From: Sideroxydans lithotrophicus
Lineage (GTDB): Bacteria; Pseudomonadota; Gammaproteobacteria; Burkholderiales; Gallionellaceae
Direction of reading: 5' to 3'
Length of the DNA: 64,000 bases
Assembly (NCBI GenBank): GCA_020723185.1
Contig: DYJI01000001.1
Span: 310,001 to 374,000, forward strand
Below, one piece after another: positions 5,407-54,647 of the stretch (positions are counted from its first letter, which is position 1; the number at the start of each line of letters is the position of its first letter). The notes under the pieces are model-generated. The model was not told the origin of the DNA, ran no database searches, and was given only the letters and a program-made list of their open reading frames with translations. The position numbers and the translations under genes are program-made.

Positions 5407-6360
5407 ATGCAAGAGCTGGAAAGTGATCGCGCGCTGACCGCGCAGAACCTGCTGTTCCGCAACGTGGACTTCACTAGCGTCGAATACATGCTGGAACGCA
5501 GCCATGTGAGGACACTGGCGGCCGGTGACAAGTTGCTGCAACCCGAACTTCCCAACGAACACCTTTATCTCATCCTCGAAGGCGAGCTGCGCGTGCATCT
5601 GGCCGCCCAGCAGACGGTGGAACATGCCACGCTGGTGGCTGGCGAATGCACCGGCGAGATCTCGCTGGTGGACGGCAAGAACCCTTCCGCACTGGTGGTC
5701 GCCGCCAAACCCACGCGCGTGCTGGCCGTGCCGCACGACACGGTGTGGTCGCTGGTCGACCAGTCGCACGACGTGGCGCGCAACCTGCTCGCCATCATCG
5801 CCGGGCGCATGCGCCACGACAATTCCGCACTCATCACCTCGCACAACCAGCGCGCGCAATACGAACATCAGGCCACCGTCGACGCGCTCACCGGCGTGCA
5901 CAACCGGCGCTGGATGAACGACGCCTTCCCGCGCGTGCTGCACCGCTGCGCGCTGAACAAACAGCACAGTGCCGTGATGGTGCTGGACATCGACCACTTC
6001 AAGAAAGTGAACGACAGCTACGGCCATCTGGTGGGCGATGCCGCGCTGAAATCGCTGGCGGACATCATGCAGCACAACTTGCGCCCACACGACCTGCTGG
6101 TGCGCTACGGCGGCGAAGAGTTCGCCATCCTGCTGCCGGATACCGCGCTGGGAGAAGCCAAATCCATCGCCGAACGCCTGCGCAAGATGGTCGCCGCCAA
6201 CGAAGTGGTGAGCCACGGTGTGGCATTCAAGATCACCGTCTCCAGCGGCATCGCCCCCATCGACGAGGTGAGCGAACTGGAATCCAGTTTCGCCCAGGCA
6301 GATGAAGCGCTGTACCGCGCCAAGGAAGGCGGACGCAACCGGGTCGAGGTCGCTGCCTGA
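5407..6360 (+). CDS. Cyclic-nucleotide-binding-like domain plus GGDEF diguanylate cyclase
   Basis: This soluble 317-residue protein couples a CRP-like cyclic-nucleotide-binding fold (residues about 20-145, with LILEGELRVHL and a GEISLVDG phosphate-cassette-like stretch) to a GGDEF domain (about 155-315). The active site GGEEF is near residue 235, and VLDIDHFKKVNDSYGH is intact, so catalysis is expected. It has no membrane segment. A run of six G at 5399-5404 serves as ribosome site. It lies between purU and a protein kinase gene, giving a small signalling block. Whether the sensor domain binds cAMP, cGMP or nothing is unknown; the cassette lacks the usual arginine context. Confidence 0.88.
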   Translation: MQELESDRALTAQNLLFRNVDFTSVEYMLERSHVRTLAAGDKLLQPELPNEHLYLILEGELRVHLAAQQTVEHATLVAGECTGEISLVDGKNPSALVVAAKPTRVLAVPHDTVWSLVDQSHDVARNLLAIIAGRMRHDNSALITSHNQRAQYEHQATVDALTGVHNRRWMNDAFPRVLHRCALNKQHSAVMVLDIDHFKKVNDSYGHLVGDAALKSLADIMQHNLRPHDLLVRYGGEEFAILLPDTALGEAKSIAERLRKMVAANEVVSHGVAFKITVSSGIAPIDEVSELESSFAQADEALYRAKEGGRNRVEVAA

Positions 6361-6457
6361 CCTTGTCCGATTTCGGCCGTCCGGAAACTAAATCGGCCGA
6401 TGCCTACTCTATGGCGTCGTTGAAAACCATCTCCAGCTCGATGCTTATCGCGAACGC

Positions 6458-7435
6458 ATGTCAGTGACCCCGCCCATCCTCCGCATCGGACCCTACTCCA
6501 TCGTGCGCGAACTGGGCGAAGGCGCCACCTCCAATGTCTATCTCGCGCTGCGCGACGGCTCCTACGCCTCGGTCGCGCTCAAGCAGTTGCGCCGTGCCAG
6601 CCAAACTCCGCTGCACAAAGCCATGTTCACTGCCGAAGTCGAACTCGGCCACAGGATGCAGCACCGCAACATCGTGCGCGTCATCGACGCCGACCTGAAC
6701 GAGCCGACCGGCGCCTATCTGGTGATGGAGTACATCAACGGCAAACCGCTCGACCATCACGACAAGGTCGAGAACCTGCTGCCCTTGGACAAGGTGTTGT
6801 CCGTCACCGCGCAAGTGGCCGAGGCACTGAAATACGCGGCCGAAATGGGCGTGGTGCACCGCGACGTCAAACCCGGCAACATCATCCTCATGCCCAACGG
6901 CATCGCCAAACTGGCCGACTTCGGCTGTGCCATCCCGGTCAGCGAGATGGGCGCCGTGGTGGCCGGCAGCCTGGCCTATATGTCGCCGGAACAGATCGAA
7001 GGTGAAGCGCTCGATCAGCGCTCGGACATCTATTCGCTGGGCGCCGTGCTGTACCGGCTATTGACCGGCCACTACACCTTCGAAGCGGACAACCAGTTCG
7101 ACGCCCGCATCGCGATCCTGAACTTCCCGATCACGCCCATCGACACGTACCGCAAGGCTTTGCCCAAGGTGCTCACCGACGTGGTCGAACGTGCCATGCA
7201 GAAGAATCCGGCTGAACGCTATGCGAACTGGGATGAATTCATCGCCGATCTGGCCAAGGCGATACAACTGATCGAAGTCAGCGACTACGACATGGACTTG
7301 TACCGCGGTTTCAGTATGAACACGCAGGCCGAGCTGTCGAACTACATGTCACAGTCCAGAGAGTTCTCGCGCAGTGTGTTTTCTAGGAGTAGTTTTTCCA
7401 GGAGTACGGTGCCGGATACTTATGGGGGCGGGTAG
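6458..7435 (+). CDS. Ser/Thr protein kinase, Hanks type
   Basis: This soluble 325-residue kinase covers the catalytic domain and little else. The glycine loop reads LGEGATSNVYLA, the ATP-binding lysine is in VALKQL near residue 41, the catalytic loop is HRDVKPGN near 134, and the Mg loop is DFG near 154. The activation segment ends in SLAYMSPEQ. No transmembrane or PASTA segment is present, unlike PknB. The last 30 residues are serine-rich (SRSVFSRSSFSRS), a possible autophosphorylation tail. Its neighbour is a diguanylate cyclase gene 97 bases upstream. Substrates are unknown. Confidence 0.92.
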   Translation: MSVTPPILRIGPYSIVRELGEGATSNVYLALRDGSYASVALKQLRRASQTPLHKAMFTAEVELGHRMQHRNIVRVIDADLNEPTGAYLVMEYINGKPLDHHDKVENLLPLDKVLSVTAQVAEALKYAAEMGVVHRDVKPGNIILMPNGIAKLADFGCAIPVSEMGAVVAGSLAYMSPEQIEGEALDQRSDIYSLGAVLYRLLTGHYTFEADNQFDARIAILNFPITPIDTYRKALPKVLTDVVERAMQKNPAERYANWDEFIADLAKAIQLIEVSDYDMDLYRGFSMNTQAELSNYMSQSREFSRSVFSRSSFSRSTVPDTYGGG

Positions 7436-9440: not shown

Positions 9441-9546
9441 GCGGCAAGAATAGCAGATTGTTTATGGGGCGGCTCCAAGTACCAAGCCAGCCGCTCTTCT
9501 CCCTCAGCGCGATCTCCGACAGCCCTCCCACATATGGAACATGCTA

Positions 9547-9593
9547 CGCCCACTTCTGGTGCGCCGCCCCTCCCCATGCACTGCTATCAGGCG
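9547..9593 (+). promoter_or_regulatory. Two weak NtrC-like sites upstream of the guanidine operon
   Basis: Compared with the 17-base NtrC consensus (TGCACCA-N3-TGGTGCA), 9547-9563 keeps the right half TGGTGC and part of the left. Bases 9577-9593 keep the left half TGCAC and part of the right. Their centres are 30 bases apart, about three helical turns, and 60-100 bases upstream of a sigma-54-like element. Each is imperfect, so this is a suggestion. The rest of 9441-9640 shows nothing else. Confidence 0.35.
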
Positions 9594-9645
9594 CCCCCCA
9601 ATCCCGCACTGCCGTAACCCTCTGTATCTACAAGAATGAAGCAGT

Positions 9646-9661
9646 TGGCACACATCATGCT
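9646..9661 (+). promoter_or_regulatory. Sigma-54-type promoter for the guanidine operon
   Basis: TGGCACACATCATGCT matches the -24/-12 consensus TGGCAC-N5-TTGCW with GG and GC in exact register; the only mismatch is A for the first T of the -12 box. Transcription would start near 9673, just ahead of the guanidine-I aptamer. Confidence 0.6.
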
Positions 9662-9702
9662 GTATAGCTGGCGAGGGTGCTGATCATGTCGATCAGTCAC
9701 TT

Positions 9703-9846
9703 GTGAGAACTAGGGTTCCGATCGCCAAGTTTAAAACGGTGATGTCTGGTCCGAGAGTTCTCGGTCTTGTCGGAGACAAGGCTCCACGGAGGGATAAAAG
9801 CCCGGGAGGATGTGACCACGTTACGGTTGGCACCCTCCCGGGCTTT
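9703..9846 (+). promoter_or_regulatory. Guanidine-I (ykkC) riboswitch with overlapping terminator
   Basis: The conserved blocks of the ykkC aptamer are all present in order: CTAGGGTTCCG (9710-9720), GTCTGGTCCGAGAG (9744 on), and CCACGGAGGGATAAAAG followed by CCCGGGAGG (9784-9809). The last block is also the 5' arm of a 13-bp terminator stem: 9797-9809 pairs perfectly with 9834-9846, followed by GTTATTTTC. This is the usual design in which guanidine binding stabilises the aptamer and prevents termination. The downstream genes are those expected for guanidine uptake and breakdown. Confidence 0.95.
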
Positions 9847-9866
9847 GTTATTTTCAGGAGTGTGTG

Positions 9867-10685
9867 ATGTCGTCACGAAACAAGATTCTCGCCAGCTGGG
9901 ACAGTCTCTGGGTGATACGCGGGGAGTTGAGCCGCCGCACCTATATTATGTTCGCGCTGTTCGGCATGCTGGTTCCGCTGGCTGCGTGGTGGGGCGTGTC
10001 GGTCAGCGGCTGGATGGACAAGGTGTTCATGCCGGGGCCGATGGAAGTGGTGTCCCGTGCTTACACCTGGTTCATGGATGACGAGCTGTCACACGACATC
10101 TGGATCAGCACCTATCGCGTCATGGCCGGCTTTGCCCTGTCCGCCGTGCTGGCGATCCCCATCGGTTTGATGATCGGCACTTACCGTCCGGTGCAGGCCA
10201 TGCTGGAACCGCTCACCGACTTCATCCGCTACATGCCCGCCGTCGCCTTCATCCCGTTGGTGATGCTGTGGGTCGGTATCGACGAGAGTTCCAAGATCGC
10301 CATCATCTTCATCGGCACTTTCTTCCAGATGGTGCTGATGGTGGCGGAGGACGTGCGCCGCGTGCCCATCACCCAGATCGAGGCCGCGCAGACCATGGGC
10401 GCGAGCCGCGGCGAGATCGTGTCGCTGGTGATCGTGCCGTCGGCCAAGCCCGCCTTGCTCGACACCTTGCGCGTGACCATGGGCTGGGCGTGGACCTATC
10501 TGGTGGTGGCCGAACTGGTCGCGGCCAACTCCGGCCTCGGCTATTCCATCCTGCGCGCACAGCGCTTCATGCAGACCGACAAGATCTTCGCCGGCATCAT
10601 TTTGATCGGCCTCATCGGTCTGACCATCGACCAGTTGTTCCGTTGGCTGCATCGCAGGAACTTCCCCTGGATGTACAAGAAATAA
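9867..10685 (+). CDS. ABC transporter permease, SsuC/TauC family, probable guanidine uptake
   Basis: This 272-residue inner-membrane permease has about six hydrophobic segments and the conserved cytoplasmic loop EAAQTMGASRGEIVSLVIVP that contacts the ATPase. The family imports nitrate, sulfonates, taurine and similar small solutes. The guanidine-I riboswitch directly upstream and the downstream carboxylase point to guanidine as cargo, an association known for this transporter type; the substrate is still inferred. I chose ATG at 9867, seven bases after the end of AGGAG (9856-9860); a GTG one codon earlier is possible. The ATPase follows after eight bases and the binding protein is encoded later, at 19470. 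Confidence 0.92.
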   Translation: MSSRNKILASWDSLWVIRGELSRRTYIMFALFGMLVPLAAWWGVSVSGWMDKVFMPGPMEVVSRAYTWFMDDELSHDIWISTYRVMAGFALSAVLAIPIGLMIGTYRPVQAMLEPLTDFIRYMPAVAFIPLVMLWVGIDESSKIAIIFIGTFFQMVLMVAEDVRRVPITQIEAAQTMGASRGEIVSLVIVPSAKPALLDTLRVTMGWAWTYLVVAELVAANSGLGYSILRAQRFMQTDKIFAGIILIGLIGLTIDQLFRWLHRRNFPWMYKK

Positions 10686-10693
10686 GGCGAACG

Positions 10694-11545
10694 ATGACGA
10701 CCAAGATCAGCATACAGGCAGCACACAAGACCTTCGGCAGCGGCGAGAAGGCCATCGTCGCCCTGCAGGAAGTGAATCTGGAGATCGGCAGCAACGAGTT
10801 CGTCACCTTCGTCGGCGCATCGGGCTGCGGCAAGTCCACGCTGCTGCGCTGCATCGGCGGATTGGAGAGCCTGTCATCCGGCAGCATCAAGGTGGACGGT
10901 GAGACGATCAACGGCCCCGGCGTGGACCGCGCCATGGTGTTCCAGCACTACAGCCTGTACCCGTGGCTGACGGTGACGGAGAACATCAAGTTCAGCCGAC
11001 AGCTGCGTGCCGGACGAGAAGACCTGACCTCGTCGGATGTCGAAGCCGCCTCGGGTCGTGCCGATGCCCTGATCAACCTGATGGGTCTGAACCACGTGCG
11101 CGATGCTTATCCCAACCAGCTCTCCGGCGGCATGCAGCAGCGCGTCGCCATTGCGCGCGCCTTGTTGCCGCGTCCGCAGATATTGCTGATGGACGAGCCG
11201 TTCGGCGCGCTGGACGCGCAGACGCGTGAAGTGATGCACGACATGATCCTGCATGTCTCCAAACTGGAGAAGACCACCATCGTGTTCGTCACCCACGATG
11301 TCGAAGAGGCCATCTATCTGGGGCAGCGCGTGGTGGTGATGGCACCGCGACCGGGACGTGTCGACAGCATCTATCAGGTCGACCTGCCCGAGCAGCGCGA
11401 TCAGGACATGAAGCTGGCCCCAGGCTTCCTGCAGCAGAAGAAAGCCATCCTGACCCGCATCCGCGAGACCGCCGGCATGCATACCGATTACGAACTGCTG
11501 GAACGCATGACGCAGCAGGCCGCACAACAGAACGACATGCAATGA
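10694..11545 (+). CDS. ABC transporter ATP-binding protein, SsuB/TauB family, probable guanidine uptake
   Basis: This 283-residue cytoplasmic ATPase powers the preceding permease. Walker A is GASGCGKST near residue 41, the Q-loop is in [11 protein letters not shown], the signature is [15 protein letters not shown], Walker B is [12 protein letters not shown], and the switch histidine is in [11 protein letters not shown]. The sequence is closest in feel to nitrate/sulfonate/taurine ATPases. The frame is open upstream into the permease gene, but ATG at 10694 with an AAGGCG-type ribosome site gives the normal family N-terminus. Its stop overlaps a possible start of the next gene, indicating one transcript. 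Confidence 0.93.
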
Positions 11546-11556
11546 GGAACGACGAG

Positions 11557-12285
11557 ATGACCGAGCCATTATCCAAAACCAATCTGCTGTGGGAAGAGAC
11601 GCTTCCCGGCGGTGCGCACTGGTCCTTCGTGATGAAGCGAGGCACCGCGCTGCGCCTCACCGATGTGGAAGGCGGCGCCAACCTGTGCGCGCTGTTCTAC
11701 AACCAGGAAGAGAAACTGGAACGCTACAACATGCCGGACACGCTGAAGGCGCAGCACACCGCGCACCTCACCACCGGCTTCGTGCTGTATTCCGACATGG
11801 GGCGCGTGCTGGCCTCGGTGATCGGCGACAGCGTCGGCTGGCACGACACCATCAGCGGCATGAGCAACGCCGCCCTCGTGGAACGCAAATACGGCAAAGC
11901 GGATTACCAGCAGGCGCGTAACGCCATGCATCGCAATGCACGCGACAGCATGCTGATCGAACTGGGCAAGCATGGCTTAGGCAAGCGCGACATCGTGCCC
12001 AACGTGAACTTCTTCAGCAAGGTGAGCGCCGACGATAGCGGCGGGCTGCACTTCGCTGCGAACCATACCAAGGCAGGCGCATTCGTCGAACTGCGTTTCG
12101 AGATGAACGTGCTGGTGGTGTTGTCTGCCACCCAGCACCCGCTCGACCCGAATCCCGCGTACGCCCCCAAGCCGGTGCTGCTGCAAGCCTGGCGCTGCGG
12201 CACACCGGATGAAGGCGACCACTGCCGCAACTTCCGTCCCGAGAACGCACGCGGCTTCCACAACACCGAACTGCTGTTCCGTTGA
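11557..12285 (+). CDS. Carboxyguanidine deiminase subunit (DUF1989; urea amidolyase-associated protein UAAP1 type)
   Basis: This 242-residue DUF1989 protein belongs to the family long annotated as urea carboxylase-associated. These proteins were later shown to form a two-subunit carboxyguanidine deiminase (CgdAB) that converts carboxyguanidine to allophanate and ammonia. Visible features are [19 protein letters not shown], the [14 protein letters not shown] block and [14 protein letters not shown] at 11557 is preceded by GAGGA eight bases upstream; the frame could also start at 11542, overlapping the ATPase stop. The paired paralogue follows at 12300. The deiminase role is known for the family; which subunit is called A or B I leave open. 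Confidence 0.9.
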
Positions 12286-12299
12286 GCGCAGGAGAGAAC

Positions 12300-12947
12300 A
12301 TGAGCATCGTTGAAAGCAAACTGAATCCACAACAAGCGAGTTACGACATCGTGCTGCCCGCCGGTGAATCCTGGCTGCATGAAGTGAAACGCGGTCAGGT
12401 GTTCCGCATCCTCGATCTGGAAGGCAACCAGGCCGTGGATACCCTGTTCTACAACGCTCGTGACCCGCAGGAGCGCTACAGCGCGGTGGACACCATCCGC
12501 GAGCAGGGCAATCTCTACCTCACGGCCGGCACGAAGCTGTTGTCCAGCGAGTGCAATGTGCTGATGACCATCGTCGCCGACACCTGCGGGCGTCACGACA
12601 CGCTGGGCGGTGCCTGCGCCGCCGAGAGCAATTCCGTGCGCTATGCCATCGACAAGAAATACATGCACAGTTGCCGCGACAGTTTCCTGCACGCACTAGG
12701 GCATTGCGATTGCGGTATGGACAAGCGCGACCTCACCGCCAACGTGAACTTCTTCATGAACGTGCCGGTGACGCCGCAGGGCGAGCTGACCTTCGCCGAC
12801 GGCATCTCCGCGCCCGGCAAGTACGTGGAGATGCGCGCCGAGATGGATGTGATGGTGCTGATCTCCAACTGCCCGCAACTCAACAACCCTTGCAACGCCT
12901 ACAACCCGACGCCGGTGCGGTTGCTGATCTGGGATGCCGCAGCCTGA
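12300..12947 (+). CDS. Carboxyguanidine deiminase subunit (DUF1989; urea amidolyase-associated protein UAAP2 type)
   Basis: This is the 215-residue paralogue and presumed partner of the preceding gene. It shares the DUF1989 layout: [34 protein letters not shown], and cysteine- and histidine-bearing stretches [13 protein letters not shown] and [11 protein letters not shown] that suit metal binding. ATG at 12300 follows AGGAG by five bases; a TTG six codons earlier is unlikely. It is followed by a 71-base gap that holds a second riboswitch and then the carboxylase. Together the two subunits would deiminate carboxyguanidine to allophanate. Confidence 0.9.
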
Positions 12948-12951
12948 CACG

Positions 12952-13012
12952 ACCCACATCCGGACGACCGGATGTCGCACAACCCACGCAGGACGACCTG
13001 CGACACAGGTGA
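12952..13012 (+). promoter_or_regulatory. Guanidine-II (mini-ykkC) riboswitch before the guanidine carboxylase gene
   Basis: Two hairpins stand in tandem: ACATCCGG-ACGA-CCGGATGT (12956-12975, 8 bp) and CGCAGG-ACGA-CCTGCG (12987-13002, 6 bp), separated by 11 bases. Both carry the ACGR tetraloop closed by GG/CC that defines mini-ykkC, where the two loops jointly bind guanidine. An AGGTGA ribosome site (13007-13012) begins four bases after the second hairpin and six bases before the ATG, so translational control of the carboxylase is expected. The call rests on structure and context; a covariance search was not possible. Confidence 0.88.
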
Positions 13013-13018
13013 AGAACC

Positions 13019-16000
13019 ATGTTCGATAAAGTCTTGATAGCCAACCGCGGCGCTATCGCTTGCCGCATCATCCGCACTCTGAAGAGGATGGGTGTCCGTT
13101 CCGTGGCGGTGTACTCCGAAGCCGACGCCCGTTCGCTGCATGTGCAGATGGCGGACGAGGCCGTGTGCATCGGCACTGCGGCCGCTGCCGACAGCTACCT
13201 GCGCGGTGAGCACATCCTCGAAGTCGCGCGCCGCACCGGCGCGCAGGCCATCCATCCCGGTTACGGCTTCCTGTCCGAGAACGCGGGCTTCGCCGAGCAG
13301 TGTGCGCAAGCGGGCGTGGTGTTCATCGGCCCGACACCGGACCAGATGCGCCGCTTCGGACTCAAGCACACCGCGCGCGAACTGGCCGAGCAGAACGGTG
13401 TGCCGCTGCTGCCCGGCAGCGGACTGCTGGGCGATGTCGGTCACGCGCATGCCGAAGCATCTCGCATCGGTTACCCGGTGATGATCAAGAGCACAGCCGG
13501 CGGCGGCGGTATCGGCATGCGCCTGTGCTGGAGCGCGGACGAACTGAACGAGGCATTCCAGTCCGTGGAGCGTCTGGCGAGTGCCAACTTCAAGGATGCC
13601 GGCATCTATCTGGAGAAGTACGTCGAGCATGCGCGCCATATCGAGGTGCAGTTGTTCGGCGACGGCAAGGGCGGTGTGATCGCACTGGGCGAGCGCGACT
13701 GTTCGGTGCAGCGCCGCAACCAGAAGGTGATCGAGGAGACGCCCGCGCCCAACCTTACGCCCGAGGTCAGACAGCATCTTCTGGAAACGGCCGTGCGACT
13801 GGGCAAGGCCGTGGGCTACCAGTCGGCGGGCACGGTGGAGTTCGTGTTCGATGCGCTGAGCGGCGAGTTCTACTTCCTCGAAGTGAACACGCGCTTGCAG
13901 GTCGAACACGGCGTCACGGAGGAAGTGACCGGCGTCGATCTGGTGGAGTGGATGGTGTTGCAGGCAGCGGGCGAACTGCCCGCGCTGGACAGCATCGATA
14001 TCAAGCCCAAGGGCGTCTCCATCCAGGTGCGCCTGTATGCGGAAGACCCGAACAAGAACTTCCAGCCGTCCAGCGGCGTGTTGAGCGGCGTCGAATTCTC
14101 CGTGCAGGCGCGTAACGAGACTTGGGTGGAGCGCGGCAGCGAAGTGCCGCCCTACTACGACCCGATGATCGCCAAGATCATCGTCAAGGCGATGAACCGC
14201 GAGTCCGCGCTGGAGAAGATGGGTGTGGCACTGGCCGAGACGCGCGTGGACGGCATCGAGACCAACCTCGATTACCTGCGCCAGATCGTGGCCGACCAAG
14301 TGTTCGCGGAAGGTCGCCAGACCACGCGCTACCTGAACGGTTTCCACTACCAGCCGCACACCATCGACGTGCTGGAACCCGGTGTGCAGAGCAGCATCCA
14401 GGACCATCCAGGCCGTATGGGTTACTGGAACATCGGCGTGCCGCCATCGGGACCGATGGACGCGCTGGCGTTCCGTTTGAGCAACCAGCTGGTGGGTAAT
14501 GACGAGAAGGCTGCGGGACTGGAGCTGACCGTGTCCGGCCCGACGCTGAAGTTCAACCGTGACACCGTGATCGCACTGACCGGCGCCGACATGAAAGCCG
14601 AACTGGATGGCGCGCCGCTGGCGTTCTGGCGCAGCCATGCGGTGAAGGCAGGCAGCATGCTGCGCCTGGGCGCGGTGCAGGGCGGCGGGTGCCGCAGCTA
14701 TCTGGCGGTGGCGGGCGGTTTCGACGTGCCGGATTACCTGGGCAGCAAATCCACCTTCACGCTGGGCCAGTTCGGCGGCCATGGCGGCCGCACCCTGCGC
14801 GTCGGCGACGTGCTGCATCTGGGTGCCCCGTCTGGATCGTATGTCGCGCGCTCGCTGCCGTCCGACTTGCTGCCGAGCTACAGCAAGGAATGGGAGATCG
14901 GCGTGCTGTACGGCCCGCACGGTGCGCCGGATTTCTTCACTCCGTCCGACATCGAAACCTTCTTCGCCACCGAGTGGGAAGTGCACTACAACTCCAGCCG
15001 CACCGGCGTGCGCCTGATCGGTCCCAAGCCGGAATGGGCGCGTCAGGACGGCGGCGAGGCCGGCCTGCATCCGTCCAACATCCACGACAACGCCTATGCC
15101 ATCGGGGCGGTGGATTTCACCGGCGACATGCCGGTCATCCTCGGGCCGGACGGCCCCAGCCTCGGCGGCTTCGTGTGCCCGGTCACCATCGTGCATGCCG
15201 AGCTGTGGAAGATGGGCCAGTTGCGCCCGGGCGACACCGTACGCTTCCGTTTCATGTCGCTGGAACAAGCCAACCATCTGGAGCGCTTGCAGGACGCGAC
15301 CATCGCTGCATTGAAATTGCCGCAGCAGCTGGACGCCTACCCTGCTGCACAAAAGATGGGCAGTCCTATCGTGCACACCATCCCGGCCAAGGGTGAACAG
15401 GTGCAGGTGGTGTATCGCCAGTCCGGCGACCGCAATCTGCTGATCGAGTACGGCCCGCTGGTGCTCGATCTCAACCTGCGTTTCCGCGTGCATGCATTGA
15501 TGGAATGGGTGCAGGGTGCGGTGGCCGACGGCAGCTTGCCCGGCATCCTCGACCTGACACCCGGCATCCGTTCGCTGCAGATCCATTTCGATAGCCGTGT
15601 GCTGGCGCGCGAGGCGCTGGTGAAGATGCTGGTCAAGGCGGAGAAGAAGCTGCCGCCGATAGATGACATGCGCGTGCCGACCCGCATCGTGCATCTGCCG
15701 CTGTCGTGGGACGATCCTTCCACCAAGCTGGCCATCGAGAAATACATGCAGTCGGTGCGCAAGGATGCGCCCTGGTGTCCGAGCAACATCGAGTTCATCC
15801 GCCGCATCAACGGCATCGAGGACATCGAGACAGTTAAGAACATCGTGTTCGAGGCGAGCTATCTGGTGATGGGACTGGGCGACGTGTATCTCGGTGCGCC
15901 GGTGGCGACGCCGCTCGATCCGCGCCATCGACTGGTCACCACCAAATACAACCCGGCGCGCACCTGGACGCCGGAGAATGCGGTCGGCATCGGCGGCGCC

Positions 16001-16639
16001 TACATGTGCGTGTACGGCATGGAAGGCCCCGGCGGTTACCAGTTCGTCGGTCGCACCGTGCAGATGTGGAACCGCTACAAGCAGACGGCCGACTTCAAGG
16101 AAGGCAAACCCTGGCTGCTGCGCTTCTTCGACCAGATCCGCTTCTATCCGGTATCGGAGCAGGAGCTGCTCAAGATGCGCGAGGACTTCGTGGCCGGCCG
16201 CTTCCAGCTCAAGGTCGAAGAGAGCACCTTCAGCCTGAAGGATTACAACCGCTACCTGCAGGACAACGACCGCGAGATCAGCGCGTTCCGCGACACGCAG
16301 CGCGCCGCTTTCGCCGCCGAGCGCGAGATGTGGAAAGCCAACGGCCAGGCCGAATACGCCAGCGACAGCAGCGTGGCGGAAGCGGGCACGGACAGCGAAC
16401 TCGACCTGCCGCCGGGCAGCCGCGCCGTCGTCGCGCATGTCGCCGGCAACGTGTGGGCCATCCCGGCCGGGGTCGGCAGCAAGGTCAAGGCGGGCGACAC
16501 GCTGGTGGTGATCGAGTCGATGAAGATGGAGATCGCCGTGGTCGCGCCGTGCGACGGCGAGGTCATCCAGATGAGCTGCCGCATCGGCGGCCAGGTCGCC
16601 GCCGGGCAGGACTTGCTGGTGATCCAGGGCGAGGAATGA
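13019..16639 (+). CDS. Biotin-dependent guanidine carboxylase (urea carboxylase family)
   Basis: This 1206-residue enzyme uses ATP, bicarbonate and biotin to carboxylate its substrate. Domains in order are biotin carboxylase (1-450, with the glycine-rich ATP loop [11 protein letters not shown] and the catalytic [15 protein letters not shown]), a KipA/KipI-type carboxyltransferase (about 460-1050, [16 protein letters not shown]) and a C-terminal biotin carrier with VIESMKMEI, biotin lysine near 1169. Two guanidine riboswitches and the adjacent DUF1989 pair indicate guanidine as the true substrate. Urea carboxylases share this architecture; published work separates the two by a carboxyltransferase active-site residue that I could not place by eye. 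Confidence 0.93.
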
Positions 16640-16646
16640 GGACGCG

Positions 16647-18410
16647 ATGAGACCCGACCTGAGCATCGCTGCCCTGCGCCGCCGCTATCTGGCGGGCGAG
16701 ACCCATCCGCGCCAGGTGATGCAGGACATCGTTGCGCGCATAGGCGACGATCCGCACCATGTGTGGATCCATCGCCTGTCGCTGGAAGAGATGGGAAAGT
16801 ATGTGTCCGCTTTGGAGGGCAAGGACCCCGCAGCACTGCCGCTGTACGGCATCCCGTTCGCGATCAAGGACAACATCGATCTGGCGGGCGCGCCGACCAC
16901 GGCCGGTTGCGCCGAGTATGCCTACCATCCGCAACGGCATGCCACGGTGGTGCGTCTGCTCATCGAGGCGGGCGCGATCCCCGTCGGCAAGACCAATCTA
17001 GACCAGTTCGCCACCGGCCTGAACGGTACGCGCTCACCCTATGGCGCATGCCGCAACGCCTATGACCCGGATTACATCTCGGGCGGCTCCAGTTCCGGCT
17101 CGGCGGTGGCGGTCGCGCTGGGCCAAGTGAGTTTCAGTCTGGGAACGGATACTGCTGGGTCGGGTCGCGTACCGGCCGCATTCAACAATCTGGTCGGCGT
17201 GAAGCCCACGCGCGGCTGGCTCTCCACGCGCGGTGTGGTGCCGGCCTGCCGCTCGCTGGATTGCGTGTCCATCTTCGCGCTGGATACGGCTGACGCCGCC
17301 ACGGTGTTGTCGGTCGCCACTGCATACGATCAAGAAGAGCCTTATTCACGGCAGGCGCTCACGCACGGTTTCGATTTCGGCCGTGCCGAGCGTTTCCGCT
17401 TCGGCGTACCGCGCGCAGACCAGTTGCAGTTCTTTGGCAATCAGGACGCGGTGGCGCTGTTCCAGAGAAGCTGCGAGGAACTGGAAACCATCGGCGGACA
17501 GAAAGTGGAGATCGATTTCCTGCCCTTCCTCAAATCGGCGCGTCTGCTATACGAAGGTCCCTGGGTGGCGGAACGCTATGCCGCCATCCGCGAATTCTTC
17601 GATGCACATTCCGCTGCAATCAATCCCGTGGTGCGCGAAATCATCGCGGGGGCGAAGAAGTTCTCTGCTGCCGACACGTTCGAGGCCATCTACAAGCTGG
17701 AAGCCTTGCGCGCAGAAACTGCATCGACGTGGGACAACATCGACTGCCTGGTGACGCCGACCGCCGGCACCATCTACCGCATCGCCGAGATGGAAGCCGA
17801 TCCGATCAGGCTGAATGCGAATCTGGGCTACTACACCAACTTCATGAACCTGCTGGATTGCGCCGCGGTCGCGGTGCCTGCCGGCTTCCAAGGCAACGGC
17901 CTGCCGTTCGGCATCACGCTGGTAGCACCGGCGCACCAGGATGTGCCGCTGCTGCATCTGGCGGAACGTCTGAACCGCAACGCAAATTCAGATCTGCCGA
18001 TGCCACAGGCGCAGGGCGGTCGGGTGCGTGTCGCGGTGTGCGGCGCGCATCTGGAAGGCCTGCCGCTCAATCACCAGCTCACCAGCCGCGGCGCGCATCT
18101 GGTCGCACGCACGCACAGCAGCCCGGATTACAAACTGTACGCCCTGCCCGGCGGCCCGCCGCATCGGCCCGGCATGGTGCGCGTGGCACAGGGCGGCGAT
18201 GCCATCGAAGTGGAAGTGTGGGAGATGGCGGCGCGCGAGCTCGGTTCTTTCGTGGCGGGCATCCCTGCTCCGCTGGGCATCGGCACGCTGAAGCTGGCGG
18301 ACGGGACATCGGTAGCGGGTTTCGTGTGCGAGCAGTACGCGGTAGCGGATGCCGAAGACATCACGCGCTTCGGCGGCTGGCGCGCGTATCTGGCACAGCG
18401 CGGGGCCTGA
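16647..18410 (+). CDS. atzF: Allophanate hydrolase
   Basis: This enzyme hydrolyses allophanate to ammonia and carbon dioxide, the last step after the carboxylase and deiminase. The 587-residue protein has an N-terminal amidase-signature domain with the Lys-Ser-Ser set: lysine in FAIKDNIDLAGAPTTAGC near 74, serine in GGSSSGSAVA near 149, and nucleophilic serine in TDTAGSGRVPAAFNN near 172. The C-terminal domain (about 465-587, VAVCGAHLEGLPLNHQL) is the allophanate hydrolase-specific domain, so a full-length two-domain form. It starts seven bases after the carboxylase stop with GAGGA as ribosome site. Confidence 0.95.
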   Translation: MRPDLSIAALRRRYLAGETHPRQVMQDIVARIGDDPHHVWIHRLSLEEMGKYVSALEGKDPAALPLYGIPFAIKDNIDLAGAPTTAGCAEYAYHPQRHATVVRLLIEAGAIPVGKTNLDQFATGLNGTRSPYGACRNAYDPDYISGGSSSGSAVAVALGQVSFSLGTDTAGSGRVPAAFNNLVGVKPTRGWLSTRGVVPACRSLDCVSIFALDTADAATVLSVATAYDQEEPYSRQALTHGFDFGRAERFRFGVPRADQLQFFGNQDAVALFQRSCEELETIGGQKVEIDFLPFLKSARLLYEGPWVAERYAAIREFFDAHSAAINPVVREIIAGAKKFSAADTFEAIYKLEALRAETASTWDNIDCLVTPTAGTIYRIAEMEADPIRLNANLGYYTNFMNLLDCAAVAVPAGFQGNGLPFGITLVAPAHQDVPLLHLAERLNRNANSDLPMPQAQGGRVRVAVCGAHLEGLPLNHQLTSRGAHLVARTHSSPDYKLYALPGGPPHRPGMVRVAQGGDAIEVEVWEMAARELGSFVAGIPAPLGIGTLKLADGTSVAGFVCEQYAVADAEDITRFGGWRAYLAQRGA

Positions 18411-18412
18411 GC

Positions 18413-19262
18413 ATGGAACTGCAACTGTTCAAGACCTTGTGGGGGCATCAGGGCACACTGGATGCCGCGGCCACACAGGCGCTGGACGCAGGCTTCGCCG
18501 GCCTGGAAGGCAATGCCGATAACCTGCCGCGCGACGAATTGCGCGAGGTGCTACAGAAGCATGGTCTGGCCTACATCCAGGAGATCGTGACCGGCGGCAA
18601 CTATGTGCCGCGCCGCCATGACACGGTGCTGGAGCACATCGTCGATGTGGAACGTCAACTGGAACTGGGCCGCCCGCTCGCTCCGCAATGGGTCACGGTG
18701 ATCGGCGGATGCGACGCGTGGTCGCTGGAGCAGAGCGTGCGTTTCTTCGGCGAGTCGCAGGAGATCGCGGCACGCATGGGCATCGCGTGCAGCTTCGAGA
18801 CGCATCGCAGTCGCTCGCTGTTCAACCCGTGGGTCACGCTGGCCGTGCTGGAACGTCTGCCGGAACTGAAGCTCACCTGCGATTTCAGCCACTGGGTTGG
18901 TGGTGCTGGAACGCCAACTGGATGACGACTGGGATGCCGTGCTCGAAGTGGCGAAGCATGCGCATCACATCCATGCGCGGGTCGGTTACGACCAGGGGCC
19001 GCAAGTGCCGCATCCGGCCGCGCCGGAATATGCCGCGGCGTTGGCCTCGCATCAGCGTTATTGGGAGGCGATCTGGTCTGCACAGCGGGCCAGCGGCAGG
19101 GACCATAGCAGCATGACGCCCGAATTCGGACCGGATGGCTATTTGCACACGATGCCGTTCACGCAACAACCGGTCGCAGATTTGTGGGAGGTGAATGCAT
19201 GGATGGGACGCACGGAGCGCGAACATTTCCAGGCTTGGTACAGCGGGATGGCGCAGGCATGA
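18413..19262 (+). pseudogene. TIM-barrel sugar-phosphate isomerase/epimerase-like gene, broken by a one-base frameshift
   Basis: The first part (18413 to about 18898) encodes MELQLFKTLWGHQGTLD through LKLTCDFSHWV. The frame then shifts and ends at 18925. The rest is intact in another frame, from VVLERQLDDDWDA through HHIHARVGYDQGPQVPHP to the stop at 19262. One additional T in TGGGTTGGTGGTGCTGG accounts for the shift: with GTG repeated instead of GTTG, both halves join into a protein of about 282 residues. The family is xylose isomerase-like TIM barrel; the substrate is unknown. No slippery heptamer is present, so either a sequencing error or a fresh mutation is likelier than programmed frameshifting. 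Confidence 0.8.
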
Positions 19263-19469: not shown

Positions 19470-20450
19470 ATGATGGATATCAAGAAACTTATGGCGGCCG
19501 TGGCATTGCTGGCGGCTTCGTTCTCGGCAGGCGCAGCGACACCGGTCAAGATCGCGCTGACCACCTGGATCGGCTACTCGCCGTTCTACGTGGCAGACGG
19601 TATGGACATGTACAAGAAGCAGGGGCTGAAAGTCACCCTGCAGACCTTCGCCGATCCGGCCATGTTGCCTTCCGCTGTTGCGGGCAAGGCGGTGGACGGT
19701 GCGTTGATGACCTTTGACCAGGTGATCGGTGCGGCCGCGCAGGGTCAGGTGTTCAAGGTGGTGATGCCCATCGACTACTCCAACGGCGGCGACGCCGTGC
19801 TGGCGGACATGTCGATCAACAAGATCGCCGACCTGAAGGGCAAGAAGGTCGCCTACGCACCGCTGTCTCCATCCGATTTCCTGATCTCTTATGCGTTGAA
19901 GATCAACGGCATGAGCGACAAGGACATCAGCCCGATCAACATGACGCCGGAAGCGATCCCGTCTGCCATGGCATCCAAGGCTGTACCCGCCGGTGCGACC
20001 TATGAACCCAACGTGTCGCAGATCCTGGCGATGAGTGGTGGCAAGCAGTTCCACGTGATCTACTCCTCGAAAGAAGCGCCCGGTCTGATCGCCGACGTGC
20101 TGGTGTTCGACGAGGCGTATATCAAGAAGAACGGCAAGGAAGTCACTGCGCTGATCAAGGCTTATCTGGAAGGTCTTGCCTATATGAAGTCGCATCCGAA
20201 GGAAGCTTCCGAGATCATCGGCAAGGCCATCGGCGTGTCGGGCAAGGAAGTGCTGGAACAGTTGCAAGGCGTGTACAACATCCCGCTGAAAGAGATGGGC
20301 CAGCCGTTCAAGCCGGGCAAGGACACCAAGTCCTACTTCGTCAGCGGCGAAGTGATCAACGAGATCCTGATCAAGAGCGGCCAGATCAAGAAGCCGGTCG
20401 CGATCGCAACCACTCTGGATGACAGCTTCGTCAAGGCTGTAGCCAAGTAA
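19470..20450 (+). CDS. ABC transporter periplasmic substrate-binding protein (NMT1/SsuA-like), probable guanidine uptake
   Basis: This 326-residue secreted binding protein should deliver solute to the permease and ATPase encoded at 9867-11545. A signal peptide is clear (LMAAVALLAASFSAGAA, cleavage near residue 23). The mature protein starts with the family's TPVKIALTTWIGYSPFYVADGMD. It is long-separated from its transporter genes but lies in the same run of genes. A strong hairpin follows its stop. Two in-frame ATGs (19470, 19473) follow AGGAG; both are possible. The guanidine assignment rests on operon context only. Confidence 0.88.
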   Translation: MMDIKKLMAAVALLAASFSAGAATPVKIALTTWIGYSPFYVADGMDMYKKQGLKVTLQTFADPAMLPSAVAGKAVDGALMTFDQVIGAAAQGQVFKVVMPIDYSNGGDAVLADMSINKIADLKGKKVAYAPLSPSDFLISYALKINGMSDKDISPINMTPEAIPSAMASKAVPAGATYEPNVSQILAMSGGKQFHVIYSSKEAPGLIADVLVFDEAYIKKNGKEVTALIKAYLEGLAYMKSHPKEASEIIGKAIGVSGKEVLEQLQGVYNIPLKEMGQPFKPGKDTKSYFVSGEVINEILIKSGQIKKPVAIATTLDDSFVKAVAK

Positions 20451-20506: not shown

Positions 20507-21517
20507 ATGCGCACGCGCATCTTTCGCCATGCAGATGGCATCCTTCCGAATTCCCTCGCCATCACGTACGCCCTGAGCGGCTACGGGGTCGGCTTGTGGT
20601 TGATGACGAGCAGCGATCTGGCAGTGGCATTGTTGGCCACGCTGTGGTTCGCCCACGCGCTCATCATCGCCGCTTATCTGTTCCATGAATTCGCCCACGA
20701 CACGATATTCGCCCGCCATGAAATGAATTCATGGGGCGGCGTGCTTATGACCTGGCTCACCGGCAGCTGCTATGCGCGCTATGAGCATCTGCGTCACAAG
20801 CACGTGCGCCATCATGTCGATCGCGCTGATGTCATCAGCCTGGATACCAAAGCACTGGTGCAGTCGCTTCCGCCCTTCCTGCGCCGCGCCGTGCTGCTGC
20901 TGGAATGGTGTTATGTCCCCGCCATAGAGTTGTTGATGCACGCATTCGTCATCGCGCTGCCTTTCCTGCGGAAGGAAAGGCATGCGGATCGCCGGCGTGT
21001 CGCGCTCATCCTGCTGGTGCGCGGCAGCGTATTCGCTGCGCTGGCTTACTACTCGATGCAGGCACTGCTGCTGTATGTCGCGGCATACCTGATCATGGTC
21101 ACCGTGCTGCGCTTCGCCGATGCGTTCCAGCACACCTATGATGCGTATGAGATCCTGGAGAGCGACAAGGTGCCGGATGACAAGCTGCGCGACAAGGCTT
21201 ACGAACAAGCCAACACCTATTCCAATCTGGTCAGCGTGCGCTGGCCGTGGTTGAACCTGCTGATCCTCAATTTCCCCTATCACAACGCACACCACGAGCA
21301 GCTCGCGGTACCTTGGTATCGCCTGCCCGCCCTGCATCGCAAGCTGTACGGCGACAGTAACGGACAAGTCATTCCGATGGCGAAGCTGCTGCTGCCGTTC
21401 CATCGGCATCGGGTGACGCGCGTACTGTCCGACGATTACGGCGTGGTCGATACCGGAACCGGCAAGGCCGATGGCTTCATCGGCGCAGTGTCGGTCTCCT
21501 TCCTGACTGCGGTGTGA
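20507..21517 (+). CDS. Membrane fatty acid desaturase-like di-iron enzyme
   Basis: This 336-residue integral membrane protein has the histidine boxes of the desaturase/hydroxylase superfamily: HEFAHD near residue 59, HLRHKHVRHH near 94 and HNAHHEQ near 259, with a further histidine in FQHTYDAYE. Hydrophobic segments lie between the boxes, consistent with a non-haem di-iron centre at the membrane face. GAGGAG five bases upstream gives a strong start. It sits inside the guanidine operon, between the binding protein and an EamA transporter. The oxidised substrate is unknown: a lipid, or possibly an alkylguanidine-type compound. The latter is a guess from context. Confidence 0.8.
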   Translation: MRTRIFRHADGILPNSLAITYALSGYGVGLWLMTSSDLAVALLATLWFAHALIIAAYLFHEFAHDTIFARHEMNSWGGVLMTWLTGSCYARYEHLRHKHVRHHVDRADVISLDTKALVQSLPPFLRRAVLLLEWCYVPAIELLMHAFVIALPFLRKERHADRRRVALILLVRGSVFAALAYYSMQALLLYVAAYLIMVTVLRFADAFQHTYDAYEILESDKVPDDKLRDKAYEQANTYSNLVSVRWPWLNLLILNFPYHNAHHEQLAVPWYRLPALHRKLYGDSNGQVIPMAKLLLPFHRHRVTRVLSDDYGVVDTGTGKADGFIGAVSVSFLTAV

Positions 21518-21518
21518 G

Positions 21519-22469
21519 ATGACGAGGGGGGTATTGGCTCAGCACCGCGAGGGCATGGCGATCGGCTCGCTATTGGTGGGCGCGTTGTTCTGGGGCATGT
21601 TGTGGTGGCCGCTGAAGGCGCTGGACGGGATAGGCGTCGCCGGCAGCATCGTGCAGGTGTACGCCTACGGGCTTGCCGCCTTGCTGTTGTTGCCGTTCGC
21701 CTTGCGCAGCTTCGCCCAGTGGCGCGACCAGCCCGGGCTGCTGGCGATCATCATGCTGATGGGCGGCTGGGCCAACGCCTCGCTGGTGACCGCGCTCACC
21801 GAAGGCAGCGTGGTGCGCGTGATGCTGCTGTTCTTCCTTGCACCGGTGTGGACCATCCTGGCCGCGCGCATCTTCCTCGGCGAGGCGTTCACCCGTTTGC
21901 GGCTCATCTCGCTGTTGCTGGCGCTGGCCGGTCTGGCCGCGACGCTGGGCGGCCCGGAACTGTTCTCGGCACCGCTGTCGGTGATCGACCTGCTGGCACT
22001 TTCGTCCGGCGTGGCGTTCGCGCTCAACAACGTGGCAGTGCGGGTCGGGCATCATCTGACCGACTCGGTGCGCGCGACAGCGATGATAGGCGGGTGTGCA
22101 TTGATCGCATTGGGCTTCCTGACATTCAGTGGCCAGCCGTTGCAGGCGCTCGATGGTCAGCAGGTCGGCTCGATGCTGGCGCTGGGTCTGCTATGGATAT
22201 TGCCCGGCACGCTGGTTACCTTCTACGGCGTCGCGCGGCTGGATGCCGGCCGCGCCGGCATCCTGTTGCTGGGCGAACTGGTGGTGGCGGTGATCTCGGC
22301 GGTGCTGATCGGCGGGGAACATCTGTCCTGGCGGGAAGCGGTCGGCGGCACGCTGATCCTCTCCGCCGCTGTCATCGAGGCACGCACTGAATCCGTAGCA
22401 ACAGAGCATGGGCAAGTGTCGGATCACCGAGACGCAGACCGACTCACCGAACTGGAGGAATCAAAATGA
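21519..22469 (+). CDS. EamA/DMT-family transporter
   Basis: This 316-residue protein has about ten hydrophobic segments in the two-fold EamA repeat arrangement of drug/metabolite transporters (for example LLVGALFWGMLWWPLKAL and the second-half GEHLSWREAVGGTLILSAAV). It starts one base after the desaturase-like gene and its stop overlaps the next start (ATGA), so the three genes are translationally coupled. The substrate is unknown. Unlike the small SMR guanidine exporters regulated by guanidine riboswitches, this is the larger two-domain DMT type. A role in export or import of a guanidine-related compound is inference. Confidence 0.85.
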   Translation: MTRGVLAQHREGMAIGSLLVGALFWGMLWWPLKALDGIGVAGSIVQVYAYGLAALLLLPFALRSFAQWRDQPGLLAIIMLMGGWANASLVTALTEGSVVRVMLLFFLAPVWTILAARIFLGEAFTRLRLISLLLALAGLAATLGGPELFSAPLSVIDLLALSSGVAFALNNVAVRVGHHLTDSVRATAMIGGCALIALGFLTFSGQPLQALDGQQVGSMLALGLLWILPGTLVTFYGVARLDAGRAGILLLGELVVAVISAVLIGGEHLSWREAVGGTLILSAAVIEARTESVATEHGQVSDHRDADRLTELEESK

Positions 22470-54524: not shown

Positions 54525-54647
54525 AAAAAAATGCCCCTGAACCAAAGGGGAAAGATTCAGGGGCAGAAGGTCTTTACAGGGTAAAGACGCCCGCTCAGGG
54601 AGGAGAAACGGGAAGCAGCTCTCGCTACTCGTTTGCTCAGACGGGGC
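54525..54647 (-). ncRNA. Candidate small RNA with four hairpins and intrinsic terminator
   Basis: On the minus strand the engB-hemB gap folds as four hairpins: a GAGA-tetraloop hairpin (54614-54629, 6 bp), a CCCG/CGGG hairpin whose loop holds TCTCCTCCC (54590-54612), an 8-bp GTCTTTAC/GTAAAGAC hairpin (54570-54588), and a 10-bp TGCCCCTGAA/TTCAGGGGCA stem (54532-54565) followed by seven T. That is an excellent terminator with no minus-strand protein gene to serve. The 5' end is estimated from TATTTT at 54654-54659. The loop could pair with Shine-Dalgarno sequences. Confidence 0.5.

Follow-up and report, generated by a model that had tools for sequence, protein, structure and literature searches.

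Why would one operon read the same small molecule through two classes of riboswitch, and what could the second sensor add to the first? The question is raised by a 64,000-nucleotide stretch of the Sideroxydans lithotrophicus assembly GCA_020723185.1 (contig DYJI01000001.1, positions 310,001 to 374,000; hereafter the window), in which a Guanidine-I (ykkC) riboswitch heads a cluster of predicted guanidine-assimilation genes and a Guanidine-II (mini-ykkC) element lies within the same cluster, just before a carboxylase gene. The presence of both elements at the locus is near certain. Coordinates refer to the window and features are on the + strand unless stated otherwise. Papers are cited by their PMC accessions.

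Two guanidine riboswitch elements in one gene cluster

The Guanidine-II element is built of two hairpins, P1 (12956-12975, 8 bp) and P2 (12987-13002, 6 bp), both of which carry an ACGA loop closed by GG/CC. A reading of the letters alone (the sequence-only reading) had placed the hairpins at exactly these coordinates, had recognised the mini-ykkC pattern and had proposed a search with the Rfam guanidine models. Both models match the locus above their cut-offs. Specifically, RF01068 matches 12956-13000 with 36.7 bits against a gathering cut-off of 32, and this is its sole match in the whole genome (E value 9.9e-6). The element sits within the 71-nt gap between cgdB and the carboxylase gene and ends 16 nt upstream of the carboxylase ATG. 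The stretch 12948-13025 folds more stably than its shuffles do (z -3.30; 1 of 200 shuffles was equally low or lower). Within the bacterial family there are 26 Guanidine-II matches, 20 of them upstream of the carboxylase and six upstream of protein starts resembling Gdx/SugE exporters, a likeness judged by eye on the first 25 residues.

Covariation was examined in 20 sequences (19 distinct), namely the window and 19 relatives, all with matches upstream of the carboxylase. P1 and P2 are paired in 96.7% of 245 cells and both-sided changes occur at 8 of 13 pairs; none of 500 shuffles reached these values, which also exceed those of slid versions of the alignment. In P1 both-sided changes are found at six of eight pairs among the 19 distinct sequences, and in P2 at two of the five counted pairs, with every cell paired. 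One row (L008), misplaced by 2 columns in P1, was retained. The loops are nearly invariant, the exceptions among the 20 aligned sequences being ACGT in P2 of L025 and ACGC in P1 of L027. Stem pairing and ACGR-type loops are thus kept in relatives, with the compensatory changes that the sequence-only reading had suggested looking for. A broader set of 34 rows, hand-picked from 55 loci with Guanidine-II matches, gives 93.1% paired cells and 121 cells with both-sided changes (0 of 500 shuffles each), and its covariation score is also above shuffles; the number of pairs with both-sided changes (9) shows no excess, shuffles having 8.7 on average and 379 of 500 reaching 9. A chance pair of hairpins is rejected by the Rfam match, its uniqueness in the genome and the covarying stems.

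Further upstream, RF00442 matches the Guanidine-I aptamer at full length (9699-9810; 89.3 bits against a cut-off of 63), again as the sole match in the 2,596,094-base genome. By direct reading, AAAGCCCGGGAGG at 9797-9809 pairs with CCTCCCGGGCTTT at 9834-9846 in a 13-bp terminator-like hairpin, which is followed by the T-rich tail GTTATTTT, the whole covering 9797-9854. The strand AAAGCCCGGGAGG is common to the 3' end of the aptamer and the 5' arm of the hairpin, so that the overlap of a ykkC aptamer with a terminator-like hairpin, as described beforehand, is indeed in place. The hairpin 9797-9846 is present in the minimum free energy fold of 9695-9866 (z -4.02; 0 of 200 shuffles as low). According to a figure legend in PMC12186494, Guanidine-I ON switches working by antitermination usually have such an anatomy, and the leader of the window shares it; termination itself is predicted.

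The genes between and behind the two elements make up what is, judged by model matches and residues, a guanidine-assimilation operon with an ATP-binding cassette (ABC) importer, CgdAB, a guanidine carboxylase, an allophanate hydrolase and two guanidine riboswitches. The importer genes encode a permease (9864-10685; Pfam BPD_transp_1 above cut-off, with all NCBIfam equivalogs below theirs) and an ATP-binding protein (10694-11545; Pfam ABC_tran above cut-off). They are followed by two DUF1989 proteins, which are taken to be CgdA (11557-12285, with a possible alternative in-frame ATG at 11542) and CgdB (12300-12947). Both score above the cut-offs of the UAAP1 and UAAP2 models, respectively (TIGR03425, 361.3 bits against 205.95; TIGR03424, 346.3 bits against 284.7). 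It should be noted that the CgdA/CgdB pair was defined in PMC11410670 on a tree of PF09347, whereas our assignment relies on the UAAP models. The CgdA-type protein is probably a carboxyguanidine deiminase subunit. The allophanate hydrolase (16647-18410; TIGR02713, 819.8 bits against 511.05) starts 7 nt behind the carboxylase gene, and an ABC substrate-binding protein at 19470-20450 (Pfam NMT1 above cut-off) probably belongs to the same importer, as its gene has the same position in those relatives that share the gene order of the window.

The biotin-dependent carboxylase (13019-16639) deserves a closer look because the NCBI model that it matches, TIGR02712 (1946.3 bits against 1303.85), is named 'urea carboxylase' and does not discriminate between urea and guanidine carboxylases. 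Guanidine carboxylases are recognised by Asp at positions 1330 and 1584 of the K. lactis enzyme (PMC11410670). By hand count on alignments, the window protein has Asp699 at the place of K. lactis Asn1330 and Asp955 at that of Asp1584; the second position was located by way of the 3va7 row, using the offset that separates two K. lactis rows. These two residues identify a guanidine-type enzyme and rule out a urea carboxylase. The protein is 95% identical to that of locus L077, a 'Gallionella sp.' metagenome-assembled genome (MAG).

Both riboswitch elements are on the same strand, their starts are 3,257 nt apart and the genes between them are tightly packed; they would probably be transcribed together. 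Scanned for promoters, 9450-13060 has two promoter-like sites (shuffles have 1.1 on average), both outside 11600-13060. A separate carboxylase promoter was therefore rejected, since the sites are no more numerous than in shuffles and neither is nearby, which leaves room for another type of promoter.

Occurrence and probable loss of the second element among relatives

How common is this arrangement? Elements were counted together when they lay on the same strand, with Guanidine-I upstream and starts at most 8 kb apart. On this basis both are present in at least 16 of 158 family genomes (17 hold both, in G131 on two contigs), at least 17 of 399 order genomes (23 hold both anywhere) and at least 28 of 398 phylum genomes (32 hold both anywhere), the three samples overlapping. 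These are lower bounds, because the filters are strict and because the Guanidine-II pattern of one genome (G146) was missed at first and found on reading.

A second view was taken from the carboxylase itself, using the best 80 of at least 588 relatives. This sample is biased towards near kin, and the guanidine type, checked for the window protein, is assumed for the others. The counts accept matches of two models built from matches of this analysis, R1 up to an E value of 0.1 and R2 up to 0.01, and some of the Guanidine-II matches included are weak (L081 20.3, L080 21.1 and L088 22.0 bits). Both elements occur at 36 of the 80 loci, among which the named ones include Pseudomonas, Vibrio, Neptuniibacter, Variovorax, Polaromonas, Methylotenera and Methylomonas. 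Seven loci have Guanidine-II alone just before the carboxylase (three with less than 6 kb of upstream DNA), so that this position is occupied at 43 of 80 loci in all. Guanidine-I without Guanidine-II just before the carboxylase was found at 22 loci (three with less than 6 kb upstream), and neither element at 15 (five with less than 6 kb upstream).

Two of the 22 loci, L130 and L135, carry a Guanidine-II match elsewhere. At L130, a Hyphomicrobiales MAG, 66 nt separate a Guanidine-I match (80.5 bits) from a downstream Guanidine-II-like element that begins at 6401 (both within 6223-6460 of that locus), and the gene behind them resembles cgdA by eye. The Guanidine-II-like element scores 22.1 bits with Rfam, below the cut-off of 32 (E value 0.02 for the short stretch searched; P2 end at 6460), and 26.9 bits with model R1 (end at 6451). 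Because the two models place P2 differently, the element is likely but not certain, and this leader may be a true tandem of Guanidine-I and Guanidine-II. L135 has a Guanidine-II-like element (2348-2402; 28.7 bits, also below the cut-off of 32) upstream of a cgdA-like gene instead of the carboxylase, and a substrate-binding-like gene lies between it and Guanidine-I. Two same-strand Guanidine-I matches are seen at the carboxylase loci L119, L151 and L154.

Gene order was read in 20 stretches from 19 relative genomes. Guanidine-I precedes the importer or cgdA in all 19. In 14 of them importer genes separate Guanidine-I from cgdA (distant homologues in G012; in G131 the operon is split over two contigs), and cgdA follows Guanidine-I directly in the other five (G154, G152, G124, G001 and G146). 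The Guanidine-II pattern lies just before the carboxylase in 17 of 19, including G131, where Guanidine-I is on another contig. The remaining two, G115 and G116 (loci L176 and L175), have the gene order of the window without Guanidine-II, and here cgdB and the carboxylase gene overlap as TGATG.

In a quickly built tree of 97 carboxylases, drawn from 79 of the 80 loci, 17 of the 19 genomes and the window, G115 and G116 form a pair (support 100 in the Shimodaira-Hasegawa-like approximate likelihood ratio test) inside a clade (96) that also holds six Guanidine-II rows. Loss of the element is the simpler reading of this nesting. Over the whole tree the Guanidine-II label requires at least eight changes, of which supported branches enforce six; shuffled labels require 30.3 on average. 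All named rows with the label are Pseudomonadota, as are many without it. The labels count only elements directly upstream of the carboxylase, the deep branches of the tree are weak and several long branches meet. The 'no Guanidine-II' label of L128 is unsure, as only 63 nt are available upstream of its carboxylase.

Ahead of the substrate-binding protein gene, a TIM-barrel gene (AP_endonuc_2, below the Pfam cut-off) at 18383-19259 comes as two pieces in different frames (18383-18922 and 18870-19259). In all six relatives examined, a single open frame of 292-302 codons occupies this position; either a frameshift or an assembly error would account for it. Downstream of the operon and on its strand lie genes for a fatty-acid-desaturase-like protein and an EamA transporter (20507-22469), the former also being found behind the operon in 7 of 19 relatives. 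An anti-hemB small RNA matches at 54525-54614 on the - strand (Rfam, 60.6 bits against 49.5).

Possible two-stage control and its alternatives

A transcriptional Guanidine-I followed by a translational Guanidine-II fits the anatomy of the locus. We hold with moderate confidence that the operon works in the following way. When guanidine is lacking, the leader would most likely fold the 9797-9846 hairpin and transcription would stop ahead of the importer genes. Binding of guanidine to Guanidine-I would hold the CCC strand in the aptamer and let RNA polymerase pass. On the long mRNA, Guanidine-II would most likely raise translation of the carboxylase once both of its loops have bound guanidine, since the folded P2 excludes a hairpin that covers the ribosome site. 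Making the carboxylase would then need both steps. This candidate hairpin (12996-13010) joins ACCTG at 12996-13000, which is the end of the P2 loop and the 3' arm, to CAGGT at 13006-13010 in the ribosome site, where the probable Shine-Dalgarno sequence AGGTGA (13007-13012) lies 6 nt upstream of the ATG at 13019. On paper, it and P2 are mutually exclusive. An exclusive stem-loop of the same kind has been proposed for Guanidine-II in PMC5486947.

Several observations weigh against this two-stage scheme. In the leader, the T tail is interrupted, and a terminator scan, restricted to loops of 3-8 nt, did not list the hairpin 9797-9846. The exact string CCCGGGCTTT is found downstream of Guanidine-I in only 3 of 19 relative loci; the others show variants of the 3' arm with a T-rich stretch when read by eye, G012 being the weakest. 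Taken together, these points suggest that part of the action of Guanidine-I might be at the ribosome site of the permease gene. In the second element, the P1-P2 spacer is 12 nt when a 5-bp P2 is counted, and Guanidine-II spacers are of at least 13 nt in the great majority, which PMC5486947 gives as a majority statement and not as a rule. The fold with the masking hairpin (-25.2 kcal/mol) is 3.1 kcal/mol above that with P2 (-28.3), so that masking would need a kinetic effect or help from other contacts. Moreover, the masking hairpin is paired in 88.4% of cells compared to 88.5% in shuffles (337 of 500 reach 88.4%), with its first pair broken in 5 of 19 rows and its last in 3 of 19. Covariation as support for this hairpin was therefore rejected, and conservation of the aptamer and the Shine-Dalgarno sequence explains its pairing equally well. 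Finally, the two of 19 relatives that lack Guanidine-II indicate that the element is not essential.

The lack of covariation in the masking hairpin also bears on a different reading, in which Guanidine-II controls the carboxylase mainly via the stability of the mRNA or via Rho-dependent termination within the untranslated gap, triggered by translation and not by simple unmasking. The TGATG overlap in G115 and G116 suggests that the gap with Guanidine-II breaks the coupling of translation between the two genes and might leave naked RNA exposed, and mRNA level and translation can be linked according to PMC12508155. We regard this as unlikely, though worth serious consideration: the gap is only 71 nt and Guanidine-II elements are generally near ribosome sites (PMC5486947). 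The same two relatives, nested among carriers, and the 22 loci with Guanidine-I but no Guanidine-II just before the carboxylase would also agree with a second element that does little for regulation after Guanidine-I has opened the operon. The nearly invariant loops, the covarying stems and the presence of Guanidine-II before the carboxylase at more than half of the 80 loci point to selection on the element, which makes this improbable. That the hairpins are an ordinary inverted-repeat pair and no guanidine aptamer hardly deserves consideration, even with an Rfam score just 4.7 bits above the cut-off, given two ACGA loops and covarying stems upstream of a guanidine-type carboxylase and the six of 26 family matches before Gdx/SugE-like starts.

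Starting from two-stage control by both riboswitches, a wider and quite tentative idea can be put forward. The Guanidine-I/Guanidine-II pair might represent an ancient and position-specific circuit with two inputs in the guanidine operons of Pseudomonadota. Importer and deiminase would be made at lower guanidine, and the second element, cooperative and less selective (as in Vreelandella boliviensis), would release the ATP-consuming carboxylase only on build-up of guanidine or of a near analogue such as methylguanidine. TGATG coupling of cgdB and the carboxylase gene (gca) would accompany loss of the second element, and one Hyphomicrobiales lineage would possibly have a true tandem leader.

Relation to known two-riboswitch systems

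Had such an operon been described before? The sequence-only reading had put forward two-stage control of one operon by two guanidine sensors as undescribed, as far as it had seen. This does not stand, as the same layout has been published for V. boliviensis (PMC12508155) and for three enterobacteria, Raoultella terrigena, Erwinia rhapontici and Klebsiella michiganensis (PMC12186494, citing Sinn 2021). What stands from its proposal of two-stage control is the occurrence of both classes on one strand in one close-packed cluster with fitting anatomy. Since the layout is already known from other bacteria, the operon in the window adds an example of it but no new system. Among the literature matches listed, none combined Gallionella with a guanidine term, subscription papers being largely outside the search; the arrangement is a known one, in a clade for which we have seen no earlier description.

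The closest parallel is V. boliviensis, in which one operon holds Guanidine-I in the 5' untranslated region, Guanidine-II between cgdB and gca, and importer, cgdAB, gca and atzF genes as in the window. It differs in carrying mgdH and mgdL between gca and atzF, where the window has 7 nt before the allophanate hydrolase gene. Both V. boliviensis aptamers have been probed with ligand, with apparent dissociation constants of 44 uM for Guanidine-I and, for Guanidine-II, 93 uM guanidine and 83 uM methylguanidine, whereas those of the window are known from sequence and would bind guanidine by analogy. PMC12508155 proposes control of transcription and translation and names their combined action for further study. 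Translational control and staging, conditional in our case, are likewise proposals in that paper and in PMC12186494. In the three enterobacteria, importer and deiminase genes come after Guanidine-I, and carboxylase and allophanate hydrolase genes after Guanidine-II, as they do here; the window is from a different group. Both comparisons are of layout.

The two-riboswitch guanidine operon is no peculiarity of a few gammaproteobacteria. It turns up repeatedly within Pseudomonadota, also in the family to which the iron-oxidiser Gallionella belongs, and the relatives G115 and G116 without the second riboswitch offer a natural comparison for what the second sensor adds. With respect to two classes for one ligand on one mRNA, the operon resembles the tandem of SAM-II with SAM-V described in PMC9481103. 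That paper reports having observed no tandem arrangements for any of the guanidine classes, a statement about elements placed together. The two guanidine elements of the window, unlike the SAM-II/SAM-V tandem, are 3.2 kb and four genes apart.
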